From Candidatus Baldrarchaeum yapensis (GTDB taxonomy: Archaea > Asgardarchaeota > Baldrarchaeia > Baldrarchaeales > Baldrarchaeaceae), in NCBI GenBank assembly GCA_016840465.1, contig JAEOSH010000048.1, positions 1 to 17,709 of the forward strand: a stretch of 17,709 nucleotides of DNA. The letters run 5' to 3'. A program made the position numbers and the translations under genes. Positions 2,828-17,506 of the stretch are shown here, piece by piece. The notes under the pieces were generated by a model. It worked only from the letters and a program-made list of their open reading frames with translations, was not told where the DNA came from and made no database searches. The first letter of the stretch is position 1. Every line of letters begins with the position of its first letter.

Positions 2828-2854
2828 ATGCTATTATATAATCATGTGATGATT

Positions 2855-3094
2855 ATGAAGAAGTTCTCGACAATTCCGGTTTCCGTTGAAGTTAAAAAAA
2901 TTCTTGAGAAGGCAAAAGGAGAAAGAACTTGGGACGAATTCCTAATATCTTTACTAAAAACTGCAAATTTGGCAAGACGGCTGCATGCCGCAGAGGAGTT
3001 GGAAAAAAGATTCGATGATGATCTCGAGAGAGCAATAAAGGAATCGATCGAGGAATCCAGGAGGAGGTTGAGATTCAGAGAGCCAGATTCGTAA
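2855..3094 (+). CDS. vapB: VapB-type antitoxin
   Basis: Small 79-residue protein resembling archaeal VapB antitoxins. It begins with a strand-helix unit (KKFSTIPVSVEVKKILEKAK), continues with a second helix around WDEFLISLL, and ends in a charged helix (about 45-75) rich in Glu and Arg that would wrap the toxin. In this family the N-terminus dimerises and binds the operator while the C-terminus blocks the VapC active site. I chose the ATG at 2855 because the sequence before it, GTGATGATT, offers a weak ribosome binding site and homologues begin close to the first strand. ATG codons at 2849 and 2828 are in frame. It overlaps the toxin frame by about 22 bases, as is usual in such operons. Autoregulation by the antitoxin-toxin complex is inferred from the family. 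Confidence 0.75.
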   Translation: MKKFSTIPVSVEVKKILEKAKGERTWDEFLISLLKTANLARRLHAAEELEKRFDDDLERAIKESIEESRRRLRFREPDS

Positions 3095-3504
3095 TAGATA
3101 CGGATGTACTCATATTCCTTGTCCGGAACAAACTTCTCAGAAAGGTAATTGAAGTACACGATCTATGCATAACTTTTGTGACCATGTATGAGTATTTGCG
3201 GGGCTCTGTGCTCGCGAACAGAGACCCTTTAGAGGAGAAAAGGTTGCTTGAGGACGCATTTGAGATATTGTGGCCCGACAATCAGTTCGTACTGAAGCTA
3301 TCGGAGATATGGGCGAAACTTAAGAAAAAGGGGATGTTGATCGACGATCGAGACCTGATGATAGGAGTTCTTTCAATAGTTCGCGACATTCCACTATGCA
3401 CGTTTAACAAGTCGCATTTCAGCAGGCTTCAGGAATTCAACCTAAAGCTGATAGATATCAAGGATATTCTCGCAGAAGTAGGCGGATTACCCAGTACTAG
3501 ATAA
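3073..3504 (+). CDS. vapC: VapC-type PIN-domain ribonuclease toxin, ATT start
   Basis: PIN-domain endoribonuclease, the toxin partner of the preceding VapB. Counting from the ATT at 3073 it has 143 residues, normal for VapC. The acidic metal-binding residues are D9 in FVIDTDVLIF, E40 in TMYEYLRG, and D91, D92 and D94 in IDDRDLMIG, followed by the usual CTFNKSHF segment near the end. No ATG, GTG or TTG occurs in this frame between the in-frame stop at 3019 and the essential first Asp codon. The first standard start (GTG at 3178) would cut off strand 1 and its Asp. A strong GGAGGAGGTT sits just before the ATT codon at 3073, so I infer initiation there. The alternative is that the toxin gene has lost its start and is inactive. 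Confidence 0.72.
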   Translation: MQRARFVIDTDVLIFLVRNKLLRKVIEVHDLCITFVTMYEYLRGSVLANRDPLEEKRLLEDAFEILWPDNQFVLKLSEIWAKLKKKGMLIDDRDLMIGVLSIVRDIPLCTFNKSHFSRLQEFNLKLIDIKDILAEVGGLPSTR

Positions 3505-3669: not shown

Positions 3670-4470
3670 TTATCTGCTCCTACTAAGGTTCTCCCTCAGA
3701 TTCTTAAGCAACGATGAGAGTTCATGAATGTTCTTAACCGCATCTAAAAGCTGGCATGCAAAGTTAAGAAACTTCCTAATCGCAACACGCGAATGCCGAC
3801 TATTCAGCAGTGAAAACACAAGTTCATCGCTATCATCCAGTATCTCCCTCGTGTGGGAAATTAGTCTCTTAAATGAGGGGCCTGCAAACTTTTCGAGTTT
3901 CCTCACACCCTCCCTACAGACAAAATACCCATAGAGCAACCCTATGAAGTATGGGAGCGCTATCGTTACTGCAACCGTCCGATCGTGAAACTCGGGATCT
4001 GCTATCACAATATCAGCGCCCAAAAGGCTAAATAAATCTATTACGAACTTGCAGTCCTCGCATCTTCCGTCCACCGGGATGACCACGATTTTTCGAGACT
4101 TGAAACTGTCTGCAGTCCTCCCAAAGAGGGGATGTACACTACACACCTTGACGCTTTTCGGAAATTTCTTGAGTACGGGAATTATGCTCCCCTTCAGTGA
4201 CGCTATGTCGATTATTATCTTCCCCCTCAGTCCACGCCTCTGAACGATTTCACGAACATCCTCTAGAACCTCGGAGGTTACGTCTATCGGCGTCGCAATG
4301 AGTATGACATCACTGTTCACCACAAGATCCTCCAGCGTTGAGTACACGACCCCCCAGAAATCCTTGACCTTCGAGGGATCTATGTCATAGACACCGATTT
4401 CAAAGTGATCCTTAAGTTTCTCTGCAAACCATCTGCCCATTCTCCCGTATCCCACGATTCCCAGCCTCAT
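3670..4470 (-). CDS. tyrA: Prephenate dehydrogenase
   Basis: Oxidises and decarboxylates prephenate to 4-hydroxyphenylpyruvate with NAD(P)+, the committed step to tyrosine. The 266-residue protein opens with a Rossmann dinucleotide motif GIVGYGRMG (residues 4-12). It has the segment DIASLKG at 88-94 and the conserved active-site His H113 in CSVHPLFG, followed by an all-helical C-terminal dimerisation half. It is monofunctional: no chorismate mutase or ACT domain is attached, and the mutase is a separate gene two genes upstream. The start has GGTGAT four bases upstream and only four bases separate it from the aminotransferase stop. It is the last gene of the operon. Arogenate specificity cannot be excluded from sequence alone. 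An NAD preference is suggested by the acidic residue at the end of strand 2 (VYDID). Confidence 0.9.
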   Translation of the reverse strand: MRLGIVGYGRMGRWFAEKLKDHFEIGVYDIDPSKVKDFWGVVYSTLEDLVVNSDVILIATPIDVTSEVLEDVREIVQRRGLRGKIIIDIASLKGSIIPVLKKFPKSVKVCSVHPLFGRTADSFKSRKIVVIPVDGRCEDCKFVIDLFSLLGADIVIADPEFHDRTVAVTIALPYFIGLLYGYFVCREGVRKLEKFAGPSFKRLISHTREILDDSDELVFSLLNSRHSRVAIRKFLNFACQLLDAVKNIHELSSLLKNLRENLSRSR

Positions 4471-4474
4471 GCGA

Positions 4475-5536
4475 TCACCGTCCGCTACATTCCTCCGCGA
4501 CCATGTTCATTCTCCTGAACGCCTCCTCCAATCTATCAGATACGAGTGATACCCTTACGAACTGCTTGTAATTTCCAAACGCCTCTCCCGGAAATACGCT
4601 GACACCCTGCTTGAGCAGTTTATATGTGAATTCGGTTCCCGAGATTCCAGCCTTAATCTTAGGAAATATGTATATTGCGCCATCCGGCTCCACAAACTCG
4701 AAGAACTTCCTGCCAAGCGTTTTCTTCGCTGCTTCAACCCTCCTCTTATAAATGTCGGATACTATTCTCCTGACTTCATCGATTACCTCGAGGGCCTTGA
4801 GGGCCGCCGCCTGTACAAATCCGGGAACGCACGTCACGGTGGCCTCTATGAACCTCTGGATTTTCTTGATGATCTCCCTGTTCGCGATAGCGAAGCCTAT
4901 TCGAAAGCCCGTCATGCTGAACGTCTTCGAAAAACTGTGCACGAACACTCCCTTTTCATAGTTGAAGTCAAGTATTGAGGAGAACCTCGAGTTGAATAGA
5001 ATGTCCCTGTAAACCTCATCCGATACGACGGTGATTCCCCTTTCAGACGCTACATCTAGGAGCTCTCTCATCTTGCTCCGTGGAAGTGCGACACCCGTCG
5101 GATTGTTCGGATAGTTTATGATCACGAGATCGACCTCGTCATCCATTTCGGTAAAGTCCGGAACCCATCTGCCCTCCATCGAGGTCTCCAAGACCTGAAT
5201 CTTCTTGCCGAAAAGAGATGCCATATGGACGTATGCGGGCCAGAAAGGTGCAATAACCGCAATCTTTCTCGAAAAGAACACCTGCGACGCTATTAGGAGT
5301 TTCGATCCCGGCGATATTATTACCTCTTCCGCGTCAACATCATATAGTTCCGCGATCCTTTCCCGCAACTCCCTTATTCCAACCGTGGAGACGTACTCCG
5401 TCTCGCCCCTCCTGATGGAGTCGAACATTGCCCCGATGATTCTCTCATCGACCCTGATGTCCGGTTGCCCCGCGTCTAGCCTTATCTCAACATCGGACTC
5501 GGATAGCTTGTTGAAAAACTCGTAGACGTTAAACAA
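4475..5536 (-). CDS. Class I PLP aminotransferase, probably aromatic
   Basis: Fold-type I aminotransferase of 353 residues. The PLP lysine is K204 in HSFSKTFSMTGFRIGF. The cofactor-binding NNPTG lies at 144-148, D173 and Y176 in VSDEVY, and R212 after the lysine. The substrate carboxylate Arg is likely in FVRVSLV near the C-terminus. Located between chorismate mutase and prephenate dehydrogenase, it most plausibly transaminates 4-hydroxyphenylpyruvate and phenylpyruvate. Conversion of prephenate to arogenate is a possible alternative. An aspartate or histidinol-phosphate aminotransferase role cannot be ruled out by sequence. The start is TTG at 5536, directly next to the chorismate mutase stop, with GGTGAT about six bases upstream. 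It is somewhat shorter than most aspartate aminotransferases (about 390) and closer to the HisC-like size. Confidence 0.88.
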   Translation of the reverse strand: MFNVYEFFNKLSESDVEIRLDAGQPDIRVDERIIGAMFDSIRRGETEYVSTVGIRELRERIAELYDVDAEEVIISPGSKLLIASQVFFSRKIAVIAPFWPAYVHMASLFGKKIQVLETSMEGRWVPDFTEMDDEVDLVIINYPNNPTGVALPRSKMRELLDVASERGITVVSDEVYRDILFNSRFSSILDFNYEKGVFVHSFSKTFSMTGFRIGFAIANREIIKKIQRFIEATVTCVPGFVQAAALKALEVIDEVRRIVSDIYKRRVEAAKKTLGRKFFEFVEPDGAIYIFPKIKAGISGTEFTYKLLKQGVSVFPGEAFGNYKQFVRVSLVSDRLEEAFRRMNMVAEECSGR

Positions 5537-5779
5537 TCACCCATCACCCTGTAACCTTATCGACAGCCTCAAAATCTCCCTAAAAACGTCCCTGTAGATT
5601 CCTGCCCTTCGTAAAACGTGCTCCTCCCTCTTCGGGTCTCTGATGTCCAACCCTATCCTCCTCTTCAACTCCCTGATCTCCCTCACAAGCTTCATCCTCC
5701 TATCGAGCAATCTTATTATCTCCTCGTCTATCCTGTCGATCTCCCGCCTGAGCTCCAGTATCCTCTCCAACTCAACCAC
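5537..5779 (-). CDS. Chorismate mutase, AroQ type
   Basis: Small all-helical mutase that rearranges chorismate to prephenate, the branch point towards Tyr and Phe. Counting from the GTG at 5779, the active-site residues R11, R28, K39, D48, R51 and E52 fall at the same numbers as in the E. coli P-protein mutase domain. A Gln near the end (Q77) may be the counterpart of Gln88. The protein has 80 residues and a short last helix. The start is uncertain: the TTG at 5770 has the better ribosome binding site (GAGGTG six bases before it), while the GTG at 5779 lies inside that site. The frame overlaps the end of aroC by 52 bases (43 from the TTG). The mRNA around the start can fold so that the binding site pairs with CACCT, suggesting that translation depends on ribosomes finishing aroC. 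Confidence 0.88.
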   Translation of the reverse strand: MVELERILELRREIDRIDEEIIRLLDRRMKLVREIRELKRRIGLDIRDPKREEHVLRRAGIYRDVFREILRLSIRLQGDG

Positions 5780-6834
5780 CTCAGGAGGTGATCCGTCAAA
5801 ACTATCGCGAAAACCGCCTCTACGACTGGCACTGCCCGTATCGCGATACAGGTATCAAACCTCCCCCTCAGTTTCAAATCTACCTCTCTCATCTCCCGGA
5901 GATTCACGCTCCTCTGCGGTTTCAGGATGGACGGCGTGGGCTTTATCACAACTCTGAACCTTATAGGTGCACCGTTGCTCATTCCCCCGAGTATTCCACC
6001 TGCATTATTCGTTCTGAACTCCACCCTCCCATCCCTAACTGTAAGCTGATCGTTGGCCTCGCTCCCCCTCATTTGTGCGAGTCTGAATCCCGCCCCGAAT
6101 TCTATGCCCTTGACTGCCGGTATCACGAACATCGCCTTTGCAAGATCCCCGTCTAAGGTATCTATCGGGGGCTCCCCGAGACCCACCGGGACGTTAAGCG
6201 CCACCGCCTCGATGATCCCCCCGATACTATCCCCCTCATTCTTAATATCGCGCAAAAGGTCTACTATTCCTCTGGAAGCTTCCAGGTCCGGGCATGCAAC
6301 TGGGCTCTTGGGGAGGTTTTCCCTAATTTCCTCAAGAGTCATGTCTTCCCTCATGCGGACGTTTCCTATTTGAAAAACGTACGCCAGTACCTCTATTCCG
6401 AATTTTTCGAGAACTTTCTTTGCAATAGACCCTGCGGCAACAAGCGCGGCCGTTATTCTACCCGAGAAGATCCCCCCACCCCTATAATCGTTGAAACCGA
6501 AGTACTTAATTCTGGCAACATAATCCGCGTGTCCCGGCCTCGGAATGTCCTTTATCTTCTCGTAGGGTGCGGAGTCGACGTCTCGATTCCATACGACTAT
6601 TGTTATGGGCGCGCCCGTTGTCCGCCCGTTGAAGACCCCGGATAGGATTGTAAAATCGTCCTCTTCATCCCTAGGACTGGAGAACTCGTCCTTTCCGGGC
6701 CTCCTCCTCTCGAGATCTCTCCTTATGTCGTCGGGGTTCACCTCTATTCCGGGAGGGCATCCCTCTATCACGGCGCCCACGCATTTCCCGTGGCTCTCTC
6801 CGAATATCGAGACCCTGAACGCCTTCCCTATCAT
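5728..6834 (-). CDS. aroC: Chorismate synthase
   Basis: Converts 5-enolpyruvylshikimate 3-phosphate to chorismate using reduced FMN. The 368 residues are normal for the family. Recognisable motifs are FGESHG (11-16), RRRPGKDEFSSPRDEED (43-59), GRTTGAPI, RPGHADY, the FMN-binding GGGIFSGRITA, GSEANDQ, NNAGGILGGMSNG and RAVPVVEA near the end. The usual third signature around R-H-D-P-C reads RFDTC here, a substitution of the customary His and Pro in an otherwise complete protein. The start ATG at 6834 overlaps the aroA stop as ATGA. The last 17 residues run past the usual end and overlap chorismate mutase in another frame. How the flavin is reduced in this organism cannot be told from the window. 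Confidence 0.96.
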   Translation of the reverse strand: MIGKAFRVSIFGESHGKCVGAVIEGCPPGIEVNPDDIRRDLERRRPGKDEFSSPRDEEDDFTILSGVFNGRTTGAPITIVVWNRDVDSAPYEKIKDIPRPGHADYVARIKYFGFNDYRGGGIFSGRITAALVAAGSIAKKVLEKFGIEVLAYVFQIGNVRMREDMTLEEIRENLPKSPVACPDLEASRGIVDLLRDIKNEGDSIGGIIEAVALNVPVGLGEPPIDTLDGDLAKAMFVIPAVKGIEFGAGFRLAQMRGSEANDQLTVRDGRVEFRTNNAGGILGGMSNGAPIRFRVVIKPTPSILKPQRSVNLREMREVDLKLRGRFDTCIAIRAVPVVEAVFAIVLTDHLLRWLSWRGYWSSGGRSTG

Positions 6835-8087
6835 TGGAACTCGACCCTCCCGCCGATTCTCATAAGATCGTTAAAGAACGCGGGATAGGAGTCCTGCACA
6901 CAATCTACTCCTAGGATCTTGCTCTCGCCCCTCGCACCCAGCGCCGCGATTACAAGCGCCATCGCTATCCTGTGATCCCCATATGAGTCCAGAACCGCAC
7001 CCCTTAACTCCCTATGCCCTTTGATTACGAGTCCATCTTCTCTTTCCTTAACATTTACTCCCATTCTTTTCAGGTTATCGGCGATCGCGCGTAACCTATC
7101 CGATTCCTTGTATCTGAGGTGATCAGCACCCGAAATTATTGTTGTTCCCCTAGCATAGGCGCCTAGGACGGATATTACGGGAACAAGATCTGGCGCGTCA
7201 CTGCAGTTCACATGTATTCCCTCTAGGTCTCCCCGGGATACTTCAATCACCTCCCCATGGATCTTGACATCCGCACCCATTTGACAGAGGACGTCGAGTA
7301 TCATCCGGTCCCCTTGGACGTCCCTCGGATCTAGGCCCCGCACCCTCACCTTGCCGTGCAAGGCTCCCGCCGCAAGTATGAACGCCGCAGAGGAATAGTC
7401 ACCCGGGATTTTGAACGTGGTGGGTATCGGGTTTTGCCTTTCGACGGAGAACCTCCTGTAATCTTCCCTATGTACCGATAGACCGAACCTCCTCATGGAC
7501 TTTATCGTTATATCCAGATAGGGACGCGACTTCGGCTCCGAAATGATCTCGATCTCGAGGCCCACCTTTGGCGCAACGATTAGGAGGGCCGTAATGAATT
7601 GTGATGAAACATCGCCTCTTACCTTCAAAGTACGGGACTTTATCTTGTCCCTTCCGCCTCGGACGAGTATGGGAAGTCTCCCCCCTTCGGAAAATTCCAC
7701 CTCTATTCCCATTTGAGACAGTGCCTCGATCATCGGAGACATAGGTCTCCTCCTTAAGGATGCGGACCCGTCTATCACCGTGGTTCCGTCAACTAGGGCG
7801 GCAATTGCCATTGAAATCCTCGCGGTGGTTCCCGAGTTTCCGCACCAGATGACATCTTTTGGCTGGACGGGATCTCCAACTCCGATAATCCTTTCCCAAG
7901 ACGCGTCAGCGCCGAACTCTCGTATCGCGCCCATGCTTGCCTCTGTGTCATTCGATATGAGGGGGTTCACTAATCTGGACTCTCCCTCCGCGAGCAGGGA
8001 AAGAAATAGAGCCCTGTGGGTGTAGCTCTTAGATGGCGGGGCCCTGACCTCCCCGCTTATTTCAGATGGGACGACCCTAACGTTCAC
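6831..8087 (-). CDS. aroA: 3-phosphoshikimate 1-carboxyvinyltransferase (EPSP synthase)
   Basis: Joins phosphoenolpyruvate to shikimate 3-phosphate. The 418 residues contain K20, S21 and R25 in APPSKSYTHRALFL, the PEP-binding GNSGTTARI, the SLRRRPM segment, SSQFITALL, the catalytic-Asp region SDAPDLVPV, LRYKESDRL, and YGDHRIAMAL. The start is taken as the GTG at 8087, because an eight-base GAGGTGAT ribosome binding site ends four bases before it and homologues begin right at this strand. A GTG at 8096, which would overlap the aroK stop as GTGA, is the alternative and adds three residues. The stop overlaps the aroC start. It sits seventh in its operon after aroK, in pathway order. Confidence 0.95.
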   Translation of the reverse strand: MNVRVVPSEISGEVRAPPSKSYTHRALFLSLLAEGESRLVNPLISNDTEASMGAIREFGADASWERIIGVGDPVQPKDVIWCGNSGTTARISMAIAALVDGTTVIDGSASLRRRPMSPMIEALSQMGIEVEFSEGGRLPILVRGGRDKIKSRTLKVRGDVSSQFITALLIVAPKVGLEIEIISEPKSRPYLDITIKSMRRFGLSVHREDYRRFSVERQNPIPTTFKIPGDYSSAAFILAAGALHGKVRVRGLDPRDVQGDRMILDVLCQMGADVKIHGEVIEVSRGDLEGIHVNCSDAPDLVPVISVLGAYARGTTIISGADHLRYKESDRLRAIADNLKRMGVNVKEREDGLVIKGHRELRGAVLDSYGDHRIAMALVIAALGARGESKILGVDCVQDSYPAFFNDLMRIGGRVEFQ

Positions 8088-8092
8088 GGTTA

Positions 8093-8932
8093 TCACCTCG
8101 TCTCCGTGATGATTATCCTCTCGGCATCCTCCCTCTCCTCCCAAACTTCCCTTACCCCTTCCGGATCCTCGGTGACCGCTACAACAGCTGGCCCGGTCCC
8201 CGAAACTGCCGCCGCGATTGCGCCCGCCTTTAAGGCTTCAAATATCGGGCTCGTGTCATATCCCAGTAAGGCCGCATAAAGAATTCCGTTTATTACCATT
8301 GCCTCCCTCCACTTTCCGGCAAGCGCCAATTTGAACGCCTCTTCCACGTAGGGTGCCACTATTTTGAAGTTTACACCCTTGAGGGACCCCTTGCTGACCC
8401 TCTTCCTCGGCACAAGTATCACGACTGGCAGTCGATCAACCTCCTCCCGCTTGATCAATTCCGTATTGATGTTATCGGTGATGCACAAACCTCCTAGGAG
8501 GGAGGCGCACGCATCGTCGAACGCTCCCGTTATGGTAACACCAGCGACCTTTGCGGCCTCCACTCCGAGTTTTATTACCTCTAAGGGATCGAGTTTCTCC
8601 CCGATGGCATCTAAAACTGCGGATACTAGGGCGTTTGCTGCCGCGCTGCTACTTTTAAGTCCTCTCGATATTGGAATTTCCGAGCGGATGAATACTCTCA
8701 ACCCTCCCTCTATTCCAAATTTGCGAAACATGACCTCCTTGACGGCCCTCACAAGATCAAAATCACATACTTCCTCCGTCCCATCAATTCGAATTTCCCC
8801 CTCAATGACATCCTCATCAACTATTTCAATGTGTGCCTCCGTCCTCAGTTTTATTCCAATTGCTGCACCTTTTCCGGTGGCTATCGCGTTTATTACCGTG
8901 ATCGCACCGTAGGCTTCACCCTTCCCCCTCAT
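8093..8932 (-). CDS. aroK: Shikimate kinase, archaeal GHMP type
   Basis: Phosphorylates shikimate at the 3-hydroxyl with ATP. This is the archaeal enzyme of the GHMP kinase superfamily (homoserine, mevalonate and galactokinase relatives), not the P-loop enzyme of bacteria. The ATP-binding motif is PISRGLKSSSAAAN at 87-100, and the C-terminal GHMP motif is SGTGPAVVA. The 279 residues are typical. The start ATG at 8932 has GGAGG immediately upstream and overlaps the aroE stop by 17 bases. Its place between aroE and aroA separates it from other GHMP kinases and makes the assignment firm. Confidence 0.95.
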   Translation of the reverse strand: MRGKGEAYGAITVINAIATGKGAAIGIKLRTEAHIEIVDEDVIEGEIRIDGTEEVCDFDLVRAVKEVMFRKFGIEGGLRVFIRSEIPISRGLKSSSAAANALVSAVLDAIGEKLDPLEVIKLGVEAAKVAGVTITGAFDDACASLLGGLCITDNINTELIKREEVDRLPVVILVPRKRVSKGSLKGVNFKIVAPYVEEAFKLALAGKWREAMVINGILYAALLGYDTSPIFEALKAGAIAAAVSGTGPAVVAVTEDPEGVREVWEEREDAERIIITETR

Positions 8933-9791
8933 TTTCCTCCACCCCTAATGCTTTCAGTGCCGCATTTCTCATAATTCGAATATCGGGATAGTGCCCTGTC
9001 CAGAGTTTAAAGCTCTCTGCCCCCTGGAGAACCAGCATCCACAACCCGTCTATCGTTGTACATCCCGCTTTCATGGCGTCCCTGAGAAGTTTAGTATGCA
9101 ACGGCCTGTAAACTATGTCGAAGACCACCAATCCGGGTCTTAGCAAGTGTTCCGGCACCAAACTCTCATTCGACTCCATGCCCACCGATGTGGCGTTTAT
9201 CAGAATGTCCGCATCTCTCAGTTCGTTCTCGAGATTCCTTACGCTCAGCCGCATTCCACGAACTGTTGAGCCGTTATTTGCAAGGTTTCTGGCGAGATTT
9301 ACCGCCTTTTCTTCGGTTCTGTTCAGAATTGCGAGTTCGGAAACCCTGCCGGAAAGGGTATACGCAATCGCCCTTGCGGCCCCTCCAGCTCCGAGCAACA
9401 CCACTTTTTTCCCATCCACGTCGGTGAACATCTCAAGGGATTTCAATGCGCCCACACCGTCGGTGTTGTAACCCTTAAGTGTCCCACCTTCGTTGACGAT
9501 CGTGTTTACCGCACCTATCTTCCGAGCGTCCTCCGATACCTCATCCAGATACTTCACAACCTCTATTTTGTGGGGCATCGTCACGTTTGCTCCCCCTATA
9601 CCCAACGATCTGATCCCCTCAACCGCCTTTCCGAGGTCTTGCGGCTCAACCTCGAATGCCACGTACACGAAGTTCAGGTTAAGGGCTCTTATGGCGGCGT
9701 TGTGCATTACCGGGCTCAGCGAGTGCCTCACAGGTTTTCCTATCAGGCATAAAACCCTAGTGCTCGCATCTATTATTGCAAGACCCTCCAA
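8916..9791 (-). CDS. aroE: Shikimate dehydrogenase
   Basis: Reduces 3-dehydroshikimate to shikimate, normally with NADPH. Residues 21-27 (VRHSLSP) form the substrate serine loop. Catalytic K75 lies in VTMPHK, D111 in YNTDG, and the Rossmann loop GAGGAA is at 134-139. NRTEEK after strand 2 is the usual NADPH-preferring pattern. The C-terminal DGLWMLVLQG matches the family segment that positions substrate. The start is TTG at 9791, the only start codon before the conserved N-terminal strand, with GAGGTGAGGAG just upstream. The gene overlaps aroD by 19 bases and aroK by 17. The 291 residues are slightly longer than the average of about 275. Confidence 0.95.
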   Translation of the reverse strand: MEGLAIIDASTRVLCLIGKPVRHSLSPVMHNAAIRALNLNFVYVAFEVEPQDLGKAVEGIRSLGIGGANVTMPHKIEVVKYLDEVSEDARKIGAVNTIVNEGGTLKGYNTDGVGALKSLEMFTDVDGKKVVLLGAGGAARAIAYTLSGRVSELAILNRTEEKAVNLARNLANNGSTVRGMRLSVRNLENELRDADILINATSVGMESNESLVPEHLLRPGLVVFDIVYRPLHTKLLRDAMKAGCTTIDGLWMLVLQGAESFKLWTGHYPDIRIMRNAALKALGVEENEGEG

Positions 9792-10432
9792 ACGCTCCTC
9801 ACCTCATCAACCGTCAGTTGCCCACTGGCGGTTTCCTTCCCCCTCGATACGGATGCGTATGTAAATGGAGCACCAAAAAGCGGCGCGAGTATCCTGGAGA
9901 TCCTACCCAGATCCCCCATGCAGAATGCAACGGTTGGTATGTTCTTTGGCTCGGCAACCAGCCTCAGAGCGATAATGTTATCCTCCATCCTACGGGCATA
10001 CGTTACTATTTTTGCAATGTCGGCACCACTTCCGGCAATGGCGTCCCGTATTTTCACCAGCTCTTCGAAAGGGGGCGTTTTCTCGAAATCGTGATGGGAA
10101 ACTATGACTTTAACTCCATGCCTCCTCGCAAGGCGTATGACATCATCGCGAATGTCCGAATTCAGTTCTATATCAATGTACCGTGGTTTTATCTTTATAA
10201 ACCGCCTAAACGCTTCAAACCTCTCCCTTTCGCTTCCGGTGAAGGCCCCACCCTCTTTCGCCGTCCTGATGGTAATTATAAGCTTGTCGGAAAACTCTCT
10301 CAGAGAGTCAAACCCATTGAAGTCCTGCAGGAAGTCCGCGCGGATCTCAATAAGATCCGCCTTTTCACCCACACTTTCCACATCTGCGATGGCTTCCTTG
10401 ATTGTTTTCGCCTTCACACATGCGACTATCAA
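9773..10432 (-). CDS. aroD: 3-dehydroquinate dehydratase, type I
   Basis: Dehydrates 3-dehydroquinate to 3-dehydroshikimate through a Schiff base. The 219 residues form the type I TIM barrel: E29 and R31 in LIEIRAD, the catalytic His in SHHDF (113/114), the Schiff-base lysine K141 in DIAKIVTYA, then FCMGDLGRISR and the terminal ASGQLT loop. I set the start at TTG 10432, which overlaps the aroB stop as TTGA and has GGAGG seven bases before it. The longer open frame up to 10537 lies inside aroB, encodes nothing conserved and should be dropped. Type II enzymes are unrelated, so the class call is firm. Confidence 0.95.
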   Translation of the reverse strand: MIVACVKAKTIKEAIADVESVGEKADLIEIRADFLQDFNGFDSLREFSDKLIITIRTAKEGGAFTGSERERFEAFRRFIKIKPRYIDIELNSDIRDDVIRLARRHGVKVIVSHHDFEKTPPFEELVKIRDAIAGSGADIAKIVTYARRMEDNIIALRLVAEPKNIPTVAFCMGDLGRISRILAPLFGAPFTYASVSRGKETASGQLTVDEVRSVWRVLQ

Positions 10433-11481
10433 TTTGCAACCTCCGTCAACGCCTCGAGGATCAAATCTTCCGGTACCTCCATTATTCTCACGGATCCTAT
10501 CCTCTCCGGCAAAATCATGACCTGCCTTCCATACCACGCCTTTTTATCGACCTTTATTGCCTCCATTATCCTCTTCGGGTCCAAGTTGTGCCTCGTGGGC
10601 AACCCCAAGGTTTCTAAGAGCCCAATCACCCTGTCCGTTTCCCTGAAGCCCAATAGTTTCTCGGCAATTAGGCAACACACGACGATGCCCACCGACACCG
10701 CGAACCCATGCTTTATCCGGTAGTTCGATGCACTCTCTATCCCGTGTCCGATCGTATGCCCGAGGTTTAGAATCCTCCGTTTGTCAGACTCTCTAAGGTC
10801 CTCCTCGACGACCTGCACTTTCAACATCACACATCTCTTGACAATATTTGTTACAATGTCCTTATCTTGCGCGAGCACCGCTCTTGCGTTTTCTTCCAGG
10901 TACTCGAAGAAGTTTCTGTCCATTATGATGCCGTACTTCGCAACTTCCGCCAGTCCGTTCAGGTACTCTTCCCGCGGAAGCGTTTGCAGAGTCTGGGGGT
11001 CTATCAGAACGACGTTTGGGGGATAGAACGTTCCAATGATGTTCTTGCCTATGAAGTTTACGCCCGTCTTACCCCCGATTGCGGCATCCACCTGGGCCAT
11101 GAGGGTTGTGGGGATGAGGATCAAAAGTATCCCGCGCATGTACGTCGAGGCGACGAACCCCGCGAGATCGGTTATGACGCCGCCGCCCAAACCTATGAGT
11201 AGGCTTTTCCTCGTAAACCCATTTTTTATCATCTTACTCCATATCTCGATCGCTGTCTCTATGCTCTTTGCGTCCTCTCCATCCCTTACTAAAAATAGAG
11301 AGATGTCGCCGTCAAGGGATTGAAGTACGGCGTCTAACCAGAATTTCGCGACGACGTCGTTTGTCAGGACTCCCACCTTGAACGGAGAAAGTTCATCGAC
11401 CCATCCGCGTAGATCGCCGAGACTGTTCCATCCTATCACTATTTTCCCCACTATTGCCGACTCTATTACCTCGGTATCCAT
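10429..11481 (-). CDS. aroB: 3-dehydroquinate synthase
   Basis: NAD- and metal-dependent cyclisation of DAHP to 3-dehydroquinate. The 350 residues include the NAD-binding [16 protein letters not shown] (97-112), [19 protein letters not shown] (124-142), and the metal ligands E179 in [11 protein letters not shown]242 in [11 protein letters not shown] and H259 in IKHG. This shows the classical route through DAHP, not the alternative AroA-prime/AroB-prime route from aspartate semialdehyde used by many euryarchaea. The ATG at 11481 has GGAGGT six bases upstream. The gene overlaps the DAHP synthase by 16 bases and aroD by four. Confidence 0.96.
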
Positions 11482-12263
11482 CTCCTTACCTCCGAAATAA
11501 GTCTTCTGAAGTCCTCGAATGTGAGGCTCTGGGGGCCATCGGATAGAGCCTCTGAGGGATTGGGGTGCACCTCCACCATTATCCCATCGGCACCAACAGC
11601 GGCCGCTGCCCTCGCCAATGGGATTACGAGGCTTCTCTTCCCGGCGGCATGAGATGGGTCCACAATCACGGGAAGATGGCTCAGTTCCTTAACCACGGGA
11701 ACCGCCGATATGTCGAGGGTGAACCTCGTCGACGGCTCAAAAGTTCTTATTCCCCTCTCGCACAGGATCACGTTCTCGTTTCCCTCGAGCATTATGTACT
11801 CGGCGGCAAGCAGCCACTCCTCAATGGTGGATGAAAATCCCCTTTTCAGCAGCACAGGCATTTTTCTCTTTCCGACTTCCCTGAGCAACGGTGTATTCTG
11901 CATATTTCTGGCGCCTATCTGCAACATGTCCGCGTACTTTGCAACGAGATCCACATGTCTGGTATCGAGAACTTCCGTAACAACGGGCAATCCGGTCTCA
12001 TCACTCGCTTCCCTAAGCCATTTCAGTGCTTCCTCACCGAGTCCTTGGAAGGAGTATGGCGACGTCCGAGGCTTGAAAGCCCCTCCCCTCAGCATGTCGG
12101 CGCCCACTTCCTTTAGGAACCTTGCGGTTTCCAGGATCTGCTCCCTGCTCTCCACCGAGCACGGTCCCGCTATTATTACGAAATCCTCGCCTATCTTTCG
12201 TCCCCCCACTTCTACCACGGTTTTTTCGCGATGTTCCTTACTTGTAAGCTTGAACTTCTTCAT
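11466..12263 (-). CDS. aroF: DAHP synthase, type I-beta
   Basis: Condenses phosphoenolpyruvate with erythrose 4-phosphate, the entry step of the shikimate pathway. The 265-residue core belongs to the short I-beta/KDO8P-like class also found in Pyrococcus. Motifs: AGPCSVES with the metal-ligand C35, [49 protein letters not shown] and SDGPQSL. There is no N-terminal ferredoxin-like or C-terminal chorismate mutase domain, so no built-in site for feedback inhibition by aromatic amino acids is visible. Control may instead lie at transcription. The ATG at 12263 follows a very strong GGAGGTGGTG and overlaps the transketolase stop as ATGA. A longer in-frame start at 12347 lies inside the preceding gene and is unlikely. 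Confidence 0.95.
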
Positions 12264-13195
12264 TTCACCACCTCCTCCGCCGCTCTCACTATACTTTCGA
12301 TGTCGAGACCGTAGTGTTTGAGAAGAGATACGTAGTTCCGCGAGCACGTTCCGAAGGTATCCCTGATGCCGACCCTCTTCATGCGAACCGGGTACTCTTC
12401 GGAAATCTCCTCCAAAATTGCGCTTCCCAGTCCCCCGAAGATGTTGTGCTCCTCTACCGCTACAAATGCGCCGGTGCGACTCGCCATATTTATGAGTGTC
12501 CTCCTATCGAGGGGCTTAATTGTGTGCACGTCGATAACAGCGGCGTTTATGCCTCTTTTCTTCAGAATTTTCGCTGCATGAAGGGCCATCGCCGTCATGA
12601 CCCCACATGCCGCTATGCAAACATCATCGCCGTCCTCAAGGCGATTTATCTTTCCCATTTTTATCTCGGATTCGTCCTCGTAAACTCTTGGGGCGTAATC
12701 TCTGCCTATTCTCATATATGCGGGCCCATGCCTCTGGAAAATTTCGAAAAGGAGTTTTCTGGTGGAGACAGCATCGGCAGGCACCACGACGTTCATGTTT
12801 GGGATGACCCTCATGATCGCAATATCCTCCAGCGACTGATGGGAGGAACCGTCAAGATAATCGGATAATCCGGCATGTGTGGCAACAAATTTCACATTAA
12901 GGCGGTCCCGCGCAACCGTATTGCGTATCTGTTCCCAAGCTCTCATAAGGAACATTGAGAATGCGGACACTAGAGGGAGTTTCCCTGCAATTGCGAGGCC
13001 CGCGGCGGTTCCAACGAGGTCCTGTTCACTGATCCCAACTTGGATGAACCTGTGGGGGAACCTTTCGGCGAACTTCTTGGTCATCGTGGAGCGCGCAACG
13101 TCGGCGTCCAGTACGACGAGGTGTTCCAGTTTCTCACCCAGCTCTAATAACGCCTCGGCAAACGCTCCCCTGTAGCTTTCCACCGTGAAGTTCAC
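12260..13195 (-). CDS. tktB: Transketolase, C-terminal subunit
   Basis: Second half of a split transketolase: the pyrimidine-binding and C-terminal domains, 311 residues. The catalytic Glu that activates thiamine diphosphate is E57 in [11 protein letters not shown]. The family segments [21 protein letters not shown] and [14 protein letters not shown] are present. With the N subunit it would make erythrose 4-phosphate from fructose 6-phosphate and glyceraldehyde 3-phosphate, directly feeding the DAHP synthase encoded next. The start is GTG at 13195, sharing one base with the upstream TAG stop and preceded by GGTGAGG. Confusion with 1-deoxyxylulose-5-phosphate synthase is unlikely because the split gene pair beside aro genes is typical of archaeal transketolase. 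Confidence 0.93.
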
Positions 13196-14307
13196 TAGCC
13201 CTCACCCGTATGGGCAATTATTACCTTCGGCGCGCCCCTCACCCTTTCCGCCTTCATTAACGCATCCAGAATTTGCCCGTGATCATGCCCATCTACCTCG
13301 AAGACCTCCCAGCCAAACACCTTCCACCTCTCACGGAGCGGCTCCTTCGACTTTATGCCCTCGGTGGGACCATTGAGCTGGCTTCCGTTCCTATCCACGA
13401 TCGCAATTACATTATCCAGCCGGTAATGGGCGGCGGTCATGGCGGCCTCCCATATTTGTCCCTCGTCAAGCTCTCCATCCCCGAGTATCACGTAAACGTT
13501 CTTTCGCACACCATCCATCTTTGACGCCAGAGCAATGCCGTTCGCTACCGATAACCCTTGACCCAGAGACCCCGTGGAGACCGCAACCAAGGGAACCCCT
13601 CTTTTTGCGTGCGTCGGCAGTTTAGATCCGAGGTCTCCGAACGTTTTGAGGTCATCATCTTTTATGAATCCAAACTCCGCAAGTATGACGTAAAGCGCCG
13701 GGACGCAGTGCCCCTTGCTCAGGATCAGAACATTGTCGTCCGGTTTGGCGTTATCCAGGATGAACCACTTCGTGAGCAGGACTAGCAGTATGTCCAGCAC
13801 GGATAGCGACGAGCCGAGGTGCCAGTTTCCAACAGGTTTTAGAACCTCCCTCAGCCTCTGCTTGAGCTTCCACGACAACTCTCTGAGATGCACACTAATA
13901 GCCGCGGAGATATCTTCCGGTTTTTGACAGGAGATCTGATGGACATCCAGGACTCTTACCTCGTTCTGGCAATCAACTTTCCCATTCATATCGGCGCTAC
14001 AGCCCATCCGACCGCAGTCGTGCCTGTACTCACAACAGCCTTTGTCATTTTCGGATGCCGAGATGAGCGCGAGAACAAGTCTGCCCAATTCGGTGATCTC
14101 CACGTTCTTGGGCGCGTTTTTGCTACCATAGTCTATTAGTCCCAGGTCTTTTAGTATTTTGGCGTTCAGTTTCAGGGTCGATGGAGAAATCGAGTACTTC
14201 TCCGAGAGGTACGAGACAAGGGAGTTCAGGGAGGAAAACTTTCCGTCCGCGTGCGAGAGAATCAGAATCTGTTTCTCGTTGAGGGCCCTGCGCAGAAGTC
14301 TACCCAT
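13195..14307 (-). CDS. tktA: Winged-helix domain fused to transketolase N-terminal subunit
   Basis: A 370-residue fusion. Residues about 9-82 look like a winged helix-turn-helix DNA-binding domain (LNEKQILILSHADG, SPSTLKLNAKILKDLGLIDY, VEITELGRLVLAL). Residues 91-127 are a linker with six Cys (91, 92, 98, 103, 113, 127). From about 130 it is the thiamine diphosphate-binding half of transketolase: NWHLGSSLS, LSKGHCVPALY, STGSLGQGLSVA, and the cofactor motif GDGELDEGQ ending at IVDRNGSQLNG. It ends at IIAHTGEG, lacking the KGKG-to-WHG tail normal in N subunits. First gene of the aromatic operon, it could sense and regulate it (inference). The ATG at 14307 lacks a binding site. A better start at 14378 (GAGGTGAGG upstream) is in another frame, so one base may be missing between the two. 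Confidence 0.88.
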   Translation of the reverse strand: MGRLLRRALNEKQILILSHADGKFSSLNSLVSYLSEKYSISPSTLKLNAKILKDLGLIDYGSKNAPKNVEITELGRLVLALISASENDKGCCEYRHDCGRMGCSADMNGKVDCQNEVRVLDVHQISCQKPEDISAAISVHLRELSWKLKQRLREVLKPVGNWHLGSSLSVLDILLVLLTKWFILDNAKPDDNVLILSKGHCVPALYVILAEFGFIKDDDLKTFGDLGSKLPTHAKRGVPLVAVSTGSLGQGLSVANGIALASKMDGVRKNVYVILGDGELDEGQIWEAAMTAAHYRLDNVIAIVDRNGSQLNGPTEGIKSKEPLRERWKVFGWEVFEVDGHDHGQILDALMKAERVRGAPKVIIAHTGEG

Positions 14308-14375
14308 TCCGGCCGCGTTGGGCTTTCTACGGATGATGTTTATTAACTCCTCGGTAATGGATATTGGCAGAACAA

Positions 14376-14389
14376 CATCGCCTCACCTC
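14376..14389 (-). promoter_or_regulatory. Strong ribosome binding site and ATG at the operon head
   Basis: On the minus strand GAGGTGAGG (14389-14381) is followed after two bases by ATG (14378-14376). The ATG opens an 11-codon frame, MLFCQYPLPRS, that stops inside the leader of the transketolase fusion gene. Inserting one T near 14371 would join it in frame to ITEELINIIRRKP and then to the fusion protein. It is either the true start of the fusion gene, with a frameshift, or a short leader ORF. Confidence 0.5.
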
Positions 14390-14428: not shown

Positions 14429-14435
14429 TTTTAAA
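14429..14435 (-). promoter_or_regulatory. Probable TATA box of the aromatic operon
   Basis: TTTAAAA on the minus strand lies about 54 bases before the ATG at 14378. With the usual 25-base spacing, transcription would begin near 14406 and leave a leader of about 28 bases containing the GAGGTGAGG site. Confidence 0.4.
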
Positions 14436-14450
14436 GTCTGACGGGCAACT

Positions 14451-14642
14451 TTACCTATCCACGAGCGTGAGAAGAAGACCGCTACGCCCTGCCTCGTGTT
14501 CCAAATGTTTCAGCGAAGTTTCAAGCGTTGTCCCGTGTATCCCGCCCGTTCACATCATGAGGACAGTTATCGCACTATGCTTTTCAAGTATCGCCTTTAA
14601 ACCGAAGTCAATCCCGCTCACATCCGGTATCTGCATCTGCAT
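14451..14642 (-). pseudogene. Small ORF interrupted by an in-frame TGA
   Basis: The ATG at 14642 follows a strong CAGGAGG and lies directly after the stop of the VapB-like gene. It encodes 30 residues (MQMQIPDVSGIDFGLKAILE, then KHSAITVLMM) before a TGA at 14552-14550. The same frame continues for 32 more residues (TGGIHGTTLETSLKHLEHEA and GRSGLLLTLVDR) to a TAA at 14453. Both halves read like ordinary protein. I do not recognise the family. TGA serves as a normal stop in other genes here, so this is most simply a mutated gene or sequencing error. Recoding is a remote alternative. As the third gene in a row with an AbrB-like and a VapB-like protein it could have been a toxin, but no PIN motif is visible. 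Confidence 0.45.
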
Positions 14643-16509: not shown

Positions 16510-16923
16510 CTAGAACCCTAAATCCTCGGGCGTCTTTCTCTTAACCCACTTCACACGATCAAAATCCTTATCATAGGAGACGATGACCTTAATGTTCAGC
16601 TTTTTCATCGTGCGTACAGCTAGCGCATCATCAAAATCTAACCCCTCGTCCCTCATCACCTCAGTCGCCTCAATTTTATCGTAAATGGTTAGGTGGTAAA
16701 TCGAGAGGCCGCGATACTGCAACAAGGATGTTAAAAAGACCGCGATGTCCCTCCATGACTTCCCATAATTCTCCATGACGATGACGACATTATCTATATG
16801 AAAATCGGTGGTGTACGCATCGAGTCTTCCGGATTGAACCGCCTTGAGGAAATTTTTCGCCGGGACTCCGTGCTCCTGCGCTAATTCCACTTCAAGGAAG
16901 ATATTTGAATCGATAAATAGCAT
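16510..16923 (-). CDS. vapC: VapC-type PIN-domain ribonuclease toxin
   Basis: 137-residue PIN-domain protein. The first Asp is D5 in LFIDSNIFLEV, the second acidic position is probably D40 or D44 in TTDFHIDNVV, D97 and D99 lie in LDFDDALAV, and D120 in SYDKDFDRV. These would hold Mg or Mn for RNA cleavage. The ATG at 16923 directly follows the antitoxin stop without a spacer, so the two are translationally coupled. The LDFDDALAV and SYDKDFDRV motifs are typical of the larger archaeal VapC group. It is complete and looks functional, unlike its neighbours. Confidence 0.85.
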   Translation of the reverse strand: MLFIDSNIFLEVELAQEHGVPAKNFLKAVQSGRLDAYTTDFHIDNVVIVMENYGKSWRDIAVFLTSLLQYRGLSIYHLTIYDKIEATEVMRDEGLDFDDALAVRTMKKLNIKVIVSYDKDFDRVKWVKRKTPEDLGF

Positions 16924-17199
16924 TCAACTCACGCTCTTCTTCGCCCTTATTCTCCTAGCCTCGTGCTGAAGCTCAACCCCGCTCTTCTTTACGTGACTGA
17001 GCATCCCATAAATCGCCTCGACCGGATCCTCGATCAACCCCACCACCTTAATCGCCTCCGAAACCCTCGCAACCCATTCACTCAACGCCTTCTCCGCCGC
17101 TACGCTCAAAGACCCCTTGCCGTACCCGTAAAGTTTCATCGCAAGTTCCCTGAACTTCCTTTCAACCTCGTCCGATACGTACACCTTTATGCTTCCCAT
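16924..17199 (-). CDS. vapB: VapB-type antitoxin of the downstream PIN toxin
   Basis: 91-residue protein beginning GSIKVYVSDEVERKFRELAM, a strand plus helix of ribbon-helix-helix type. The second helix is LSVAAEKALSEWV. The C-terminal part (residues about 60-91) is charged and would contact the toxin. I chose the ATG at 17199 because GGTGAT lies three bases before it. The longer open frame up to 17280 adds non-conserved residues. It forms an operon with the VapC that follows at once. Confidence 0.75.
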   Translation of the reverse strand: MGSIKVYVSDEVERKFRELAMKLYGYGKGSLSVAAEKALSEWVARVSEAIKVVGLIEDPVEAIYGMLSHVKKSGVELQHEARRIRAKKSVS

Positions 17200-17506
17200 G
17201 GAATCACCGATTAAAAAGGACCTTAAGACCTTAATAACCATTGCCCTAAATCCCCAATGGCACCTAAACATTAAAGACACTAATTACGTCATAGGCCACC
17301 ACCACGACGACCAAAAGCATCCACCACCGCCAATCTGCAGACTCTAAAACATCAGTCCCGAATCACTAATCTGCAATACCATAGTCACACCACCAAAACC
17401 AACTCCATGAATTCAGCCGAAAAACCCACGACAAACAACTATAACGCCCGAGACTAGAGCACCGATCTTCTCGCCATTTTTAAATCATAAACCCAAAATC
17501 TTTCAA
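17200..17506. other. Intergenic region between divergent genes
   Basis: About 307 bases between the vapBC operon (minus) and the kinase gene (plus), expected to hold both promoters. Rich in C and A on the plus strand. I find no gene, RNA gene or repeat here beyond the TATA-like element at 17477-17485. Confidence 0.4.
17477..17485 (+). promoter_or_regulatory. TATA box of the kinase gene
   Basis: TTTTTAAAT is centred 26 bases before the ATG at 17507, the expected distance to the transcription start. This suggests a leaderless mRNA beginning at or next to the ATG. Confidence 0.5.

Follow-up and report, generated by a model that had tools for sequence, protein, structure and literature searches.

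A short aromatic-codon leader ahead of the archaeal regulator Tar, and the possibility of a starvation-driven -1 slip

How does an archaeon recognize that it lacks just one of the aromatic amino acids? In Thermococcus kodakarensis, the aromatic operons are activated by Tar (TK0271), whose binding site TGGACA-N8-TGTCCA lies upstream of BRE/TATA; erythrose 4-phosphate, at about 5 mM, takes the protein off DNA (Yamamoto et al. 2019, PMC6737238). Starvation for a single one of Trp, Tyr and Phe is enough to induce all three operons, and the authors name as an open question how this single shortage is recognized (PMC6737238). The activation by Tar and its release by erythrose 4-phosphate are experimental knowledge for T. 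kodakarensis only.

The question returns at a locus of Candidatus Baldrarchaeum yapensis. We call the window the whole 17,709-nucleotide stretch of DNA that was analyzed; the operon, its promoter and its leader, described below, lie on its minus strand. Here an aromatic operon is headed by a gene that carries a DNA-binding domain and the N subunit of transketolase (TktN) in one frame. What is this regulator, and how might its expression follow the supply of aromatic amino acids?

The fusion gene and its operon

The gene occupies positions 13195-14307, a single open frame of 370 amino acids. The original prediction had read it as a winged-helix domain and TktN in one frame, with TktN beginning near residue 130, and that reading is confirmed by the open frame, by alignment with homologues, by structure prediction and by nine other genomes. 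The winged-helix domain comprises residues 1-86 (14050-14307), as delimited by alignment, identity, structure prediction and fold comparison. The sole trace of a helix-turn-helix in Pfam is a sub-threshold HTH_36 match at residues 15-58. Predicted on its own, the domain is nevertheless a confident winged helix (pLDDT 94.5), as had been expected from the letters, and its nearest solved folds are of the MarR family, including the DNA-bound archaeal ST1710.

By alignment and predicted structure, a linker follows at residues 87-132 (13912-14049), longer than in most other fusions and disordered in the full-length prediction (pLDDT <50 for residues 88-129). Its six cysteines are absent from the other fusions aligned, and could serve metal binding or redox sensitivity. 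After the linker comes the transketolase N fold, residues 133-370 plus the stop codon (13195-13911; Pfam, alignment and fold match). Alignment with homologues puts the TktN start at about residue 133, Pfam reports Transketolase_N at residues 160-367 with 113.8 bits, and the motifs HLGSS, SKGHC and GDGELDEG stand at residues 163, 197 and 276. A sequence search of the solved structures found no relative; by fold, the best match of the transketolase part is 6yak, a split-gene transketolase, at 41% identity. As in the split-gene (alpha2beta2) enzymes, we find the N subunit fold, the thiamine diphosphate motif and the partner subunit TktC encoded next door; unlike them, the window protein has an N-terminal DNA-binding domain and a cysteine-containing linker.

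By homology, the N-terminal domain (residues 1-86) is Tar, a homologue of TK0271: it shares 55% identity over 82 amino acids with a Thermococcus Tar domain, and an alignment of 13 sequences has 12 invariant columns. The window gene also has the position of Tar as the first gene of an aro operon. Thus the suggestion of a regulator of no known kind finds no support. Nor is the fusion unprecedented; a homologue search for proteins with both domains finds it, in frame, in nine further archaeal genomes. The ten carriers are the window genome, two Bathyarchaeota, a Geothermarchaeum, a Nitrososphaeria MAG, another Thermoproteota MAG, and four more from the same phylum as one of the two Bathyarchaeota. 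What does survive of the earlier interpretation is the fusion itself and the guess of a sugar-phosphate signal, which fits the release of Tar by erythrose 4-phosphate (PMC6737238).

Tar and TktN are encoded side by side as two genes in 26 Thermococcales, and the Thermococcus Tar gene overlaps tktN and heads the same operon. Separate genes with a stop between them had been named as what would count against the fusion; they are found in Thermococcus but not in the nine other genomes, which points to fusion or fission, not to error. Assembly error as the source of the fusion is excluded by nine independent genomes with the same in-frame arrangement. Of the 227 genomes searched in the phylum to which the window belongs, the window genome alone has the fusion, so it is possible that it was acquired from another lineage or that the contig is misplaced.

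The operon is compact and has twelve genes, tktN-tktC-aroF-B-D-E-K-A-C-CM-aminotransferase-tyrA, and thus runs to the tyrosine step with the fusion gene first, as predicted. The start of tktC (12260-13195; Pfam) overlaps the stop of the fusion gene, and 3670-12347 holds DAHP synthase, aroB, aroD, aroE, an archaeal shikimate kinase, aroA, aroC, chorismate mutase, an aminotransferase and TyrA. DAHP synthase was identified by Pfam, which reports no second domain in it, in line with the predicted lack of a feedback domain; PF02153 is too unspecific for a clean scoring of TyrA, and the remaining names are those we presume from recognizing the translations. Gene order from tktN to aroA is identical in nine related loci. 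Elsewhere in the window, at 2828-3504 and 16510-17280, there are small gene pairs that by eye resemble VapBC toxin-antitoxin modules.

Upstream of the gene, a candidate palindromic box of the Tar type, TGGATA-N8-TGCCCG (14442-14461), agrees with TGGACA-N8-TGTCCA at 9 of 12 positions. It ends 6 bp 5' of a TATA-like element, TTTAAAA (14429-14435), which has the same relative position in homologous loci. Judged by match count, such boxes occur in the window at chance level (6 found versus 6.3 expected from shuffles), and we take this one as a Tar site because of where it lies. A scan of 41 loci showed that the best palindrome mostly stops 4-6 bp short of TATA and thus lies upstream of BRE/TATA, as the published Tar sites do. 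In sum, the window regulator resembles T. kodakarensis Tar in its homologous winged helix, in being encoded first in the aro operon, and in a box upstream of TATA at the published position, and it differs in being fused to TktN.

A leader with CAA-aromatic sites

Between the TATA element and Tar there is a short reading frame, at 14343-14378, which surprises more than the fusion does. The original prediction had missed it, and also that the Tar frame stays open 5' of the ATG. It was spotted by reading promoter regions side by side. The leader encodes MLFCQYPLPRS followed by a stop, and a Shine-Dalgarno sequence, GAGGTGA (14383-14389), stands 4 nt before its ATG. It contains a CAA-Tyr site and has the Tar frame at -1. 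The Tar frame in turn is open for 25 codons 5' of ATG 14307 (an open frame of 395 amino acids), overlapping the leader; from the CAA-Tyr site on, this extension (14308-14367) reads PISITEELINIIRRKPNAAG with no stop.

We counted, locus by locus, an NNC-CAA followed by an aromatic codon. Such a leader is present in 43 of 43 Tar loci, always with Tar in its -1 frame and never in the other two, although these loci are related (the Thermococcales leaders are homologous), so that our counts and p-values are not independent, with about ten deep lineages represented. Dinucleotide shuffling of the window region yields such a leader once in 2000 trials, and shuffled regions of 12 loci have the site in 0 to 0.75% of trials. 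An origin by chance overlap is contradicted by these numbers. The leaders of the 26 Thermococcales range from MPRQYL to MSRQF...MSRQW...MPRQY, and those of other lineages include MRQFQYPTPI, MGDQFQYP, MARQYL, MESQYQFQQ... and MKHQYSSQVT, each closed by a stop.

Codon usage in the leaders is strikingly uneven. CAA is followed by an aromatic codon in 58 of 61 cases, CAG in 0 of 10, and every CAA that precedes an aromatic codon has a C before it. In the neighboring genes of T. kodakarensis, CAA accounts for 0 of 29 Gln codons and TAT for 5 of 84 Tyr codons; the leader uses both, and this use of rare codons is thus specific to it. These comparisons make a Shine-Dalgarno-led, aromatic-codon leader ahead of Tar well supported, and from the Shine-Dalgarno sequence and the conservation we infer that it is translated. 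It has the form of a leader-peptide sensor, a short ORF in which codons for the regulated amino acid are overrepresented.

Do the leader codons follow the pathways that a genome encodes? Prephenate dehydratase (PF00800) is present in 9 of 12 genomes with a CAA-Phe site and in 0 of 26 without (p = 1.3e-6); TrpC is present in 13 of 18 genomes with a leader Trp codon and in 2 of 20 without (p = 1.6e-4). One of these two is a genome with a second Tar, which sits beside trp genes and has a Phe-Trp-Tyr leader. The other is the window genome, where the only leader site is CAA-Tyr, the operon ends in tyrA, and a prephenate dehydratase was not found. The promoter of its trp operon has neither a Tar box nor a leader, which is consistent with the missing Trp codon; the trp operon was accordingly rejected as a second Tar target. 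In T. kodakarensis KOD1 the leader has a site for each of Phe, Trp and Tyr, in keeping with the published induction whichever of the three is lacking.

The exceptions are a Trp codon without TrpC in five genomes (G074, G078 and G073, and G086 and G093, where it occurs solely as a QYW ending) and a CAA-Phe site without PF00800 in three (G064, G065 and G091, which is KOD1). Growth of T. kodakarensis without Phe has been studied (PMC6737238). That KOD1 has a Phe site and no PF00800 protein indicates that this marker is incomplete and probably misses some Phe makers; KOD1 may have a non-homologous prephenate dehydratase.

Second Tar copies and Korarchaeal-type homologues were also found, and we count them in support of the reading that we favor below. 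Several related genes deserve a record of their own. The window's genome has two more Tar-like winged-helix genes, on contigs C81 (L002/L218) and C9 (L219), the former just upstream of a KaiC/RadA-like ATPase gene. A Tar paralogue in G071 (L142/L171) stands ahead of an iron-sulfur protein gene and has a leader with Trp only, MSRQWKS; a comparable P. abyssi Tar homologue lies beside tungsten oxidoreductase genes (PMC6737238). In G155 (L143), stop codons interrupt both a second Tar copy and a nearby trpA, whereas the leader MPCQWMMPCQY can still be read; this looks like a decaying regulon. Second copies in two Bathyarchaeota (L144, L145) have a GTG-led leader, VHQLQY, with CAA-CTC (Leu) and CAA-TAT (Tyr), and zero ATG, GTG or TTG before the Tar domain. 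Finally, a more distant winged-helix family (L154, L156, L157, L159, L162, L163) has a conserved short Shine-Dalgarno-led ORF with a KGVxLFK motif, which overlaps the regulator start in a different relative frame where the regulator frame has a GTG; it may be just a conserved start region.

How the Tar frame might be entered

In 14 of the 43 Tar loci, the Tar frame contains no ATG, GTG or TTG between the first site and a point four codons short of the conserved LNENQ motif. The other 29 have some such codon after the first site, and a change of frame is not forced there; nor is it forced in the window, which has an ordinary in-frame ATG at 14307, preceded by no Shine-Dalgarno sequence comparable to that of the leader. 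The start-less stretch is conserved as protein. Two pairs of loci (L118/L119 and L117/L119) each have 4 synonymous and 0 other changes in it, with the exception of the pair L116/L118, where the Tar-frame segment has 5 non-synonymous changes and 1 synonymous. The same leader cassette precedes chorismate mutase in nine Thermococcus genomes, with the enzyme in the -1 frame in all nine; in four, among them KOD1, the first, catalytic helix has no start codon before it. AroQ enzymes need this first helix to function. TK0271 (315 bp) is annotated from an ATG inside the CAA-TGG of the leader, and in Thermococcales both Tar and chorismate mutase may have been annotated from the wrong start.

The simplest account of these start-less frames would be a -1 slip on the leader, in the window at C_CAA_UAU (Gln-Tyr, 14361-14367), a site proposed by comparison between loci. 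When charged tRNA is ample, translation of the mini-ORF would run as far as the stop close by and yield little activator. When Tyr is short (elsewhere Phe or Trp), the ribosome would pause at the hungry codon, its P site holding tRNA-Gln paired with CAA. This tRNA might then slip back one base, from CAA to CCA, with its pairs at the first and third positions preserved, and reading would go on in the Tar frame to yield Tar, or here Tar-TktN; a slip at the window's Tyr codon would give a product of 394 amino acids. From the box ahead of TATA, Tar-TktN would activate the aro operon for as long as aromatic amino acids are lacking. Erythrose 4-phosphate, which the enzyme half makes, would act as a further brake by taking the protein off DNA. 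The conserved C before CAA and the preference for CAA over CAG are what such a slip would need. On the other hand, C_CAA_U, present before an aromatic codon in every leader, is not a classical X_XXY_YYZ heptamer, and tRNA-Gln after the slip would be mismatched at the middle position.

The leader and its frame suggest that aromatic amino-acid supply is sensed by the ribosome on the Tar mRNA. We give a probability of roughly 0.6 to the reading in which Tar-TktN heads the aro operon and is expressed through a leader-peptide amino-acid sensor with a -1 slip at a hungry aromatic codon. With equal confidence we extend it to several archaeal lineages, as natural hungry-codon frameshifting in which shortage of Phe, Trp or Tyr leads to a -1 slip on a mini-ORF and to an activator (or an enzyme), the activator being fused to transketolase in ten genomes.

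The main alternative is that the leader is translated and does the sensing, but that Tar starts independently at the AUG, AUA or AUU that overlaps the aromatic codon (CA-AUG-G, CA-AUA-U, CA-AUU-U), a start that stalled leader ribosomes occlude or free. Non-canonical starts are known, for instance the AUU of E. coli infC. In Thermococcales the Shine-Dalgarno sequence GGTGAT is well spaced to these codons too (9 nt), and the annotated start of TK0271 is one of them. Outside Thermococcales, however, the distance varies widely (18 nt in the window), the invariant CAA and its preceding C are left unexplained, and in Tyr-only leaders a ribosome stalled at Tyr covers the start rather than freeing it. 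We regard such near-cognate initiation as possible, if on balance unlikely. The two mechanisms predict different tryptic peptides in T. kodakarensis, which we read by hand from the leader sequences. The slip predicts QIYEVFK (Phe site), QMGDAPPILVTPGGEEVIR (Trp site) and QILVTPGGEEVIR (Tyr site), and for chorismate mutase QISSPDLVELAILR; an AUG/AUA start predicts instead (M)GDAPPILVTPGGEEVIR, MLVTPGGEEVIR and MSSPDLVELAILR.

Classical attenuation or coupling, in which leader stalling controls transcription or downstream translation and the window Tar-TktN starts at ATG 14307, seems to us a good deal less probable again. The ATG is there, and bacterial leader peptides with regulatory codons classically act in this manner. 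But we find no RNA structure downstream of the leader that is conserved across loci: z-scores are scattered and strong in single loci alone, and neither the alternative hairpins and terminator of an attenuator nor a consistent hairpin that could stimulate frameshifting, a candidate we rejected, appears. Attenuation also does not account for the missing Shine-Dalgarno sequence before ATG 14307, for the 14 Tar and four chorismate mutase loci without any standard start, or for the constant -1 relation (43 of 43 Tar, nine of nine chorismate mutase loci).

The original idea, a fused regulator-enzyme that signals the state of sugar phosphate or thiamine diphosphate to its own promoter, with translation playing no part in the control, now looks very improbable. 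The fusion, the box and the release of Tar by erythrose 4-phosphate fit it, but it ignores a leader found in all 43 loci whether Tar is fused or not, and erythrose 4-phosphate acts at millimolar levels only in the Tar paper (PMC6737238). Chance or artefact, that is, a functionless overlapping ORF or a sequencing error in the fusion, can practically be dismissed: the leader is short and the window genome is in 100 contigs, but the single frame at every locus against at most 0.75% in each set of shuffles, and the independent fused genomes, stand against it.

Consequences for aromatic regulation in archaea

Control by leader peptides is known, as is control by sensor frameshifts (RF2, antizyme); to our knowledge no amino-acid-sensing leader peptide is known in archaea. 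Like E. coli trpL and pheL, the leader ahead of Tar is a short ORF rich in end-product codons before a biosynthetic operon; unlike them, it is archaeal, it lacks conserved terminator and antiterminator hairpins, and the regulated gene overlaps it in the -1 frame. With E. coli prfB (RF2) it shares a short, Shine-Dalgarno-led zero-frame ORF and, in the proposed mechanism, a logic in which lack of a decoding factor makes a codon slow and provokes a slip into the frame of the relieving protein. Here, however, the slip would be -1 and not +1, the ribosome would be slowed by a sense codon for an aromatic amino acid and not by a stop, and the product is a transcription activator.

Hungry-codon frameshifting is likewise a change of frame where aminoacyl-tRNA is scarce, but it is known as a starvation effect in E. 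coli (Atkins et al. 2016, PMC5009743). According to this 2016 review, no trans-frame product with a starvation function was known to arise by hungry-codon frameshifting. The available part of the Tar paper contains no description of the aromatic leader or of its frame relation (PMC6737238), and our literature search for archaeal leader peptides, frameshifting and the Tar-transketolase fusion found nothing relevant beyond these two papers.

If the slip is confirmed, the input, the direction, the domain of life and the output would all be new for a sensor frameshift. It would give archaea an amino-acid-sensing leader peptide and, judged by the 2016 review (PMC5009743), it would be the first case of a starvation-specific protein made by hungry-codon frameshifting. 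In the genomes with the fusion, a regulator that responds to erythrose 4-phosphate would be coupled to the enzyme that makes it. And to the question left open by Yamamoto et al., how a shortage of just one of the three aromatic amino acids is recognized, the leader offers a direct and testable answer.
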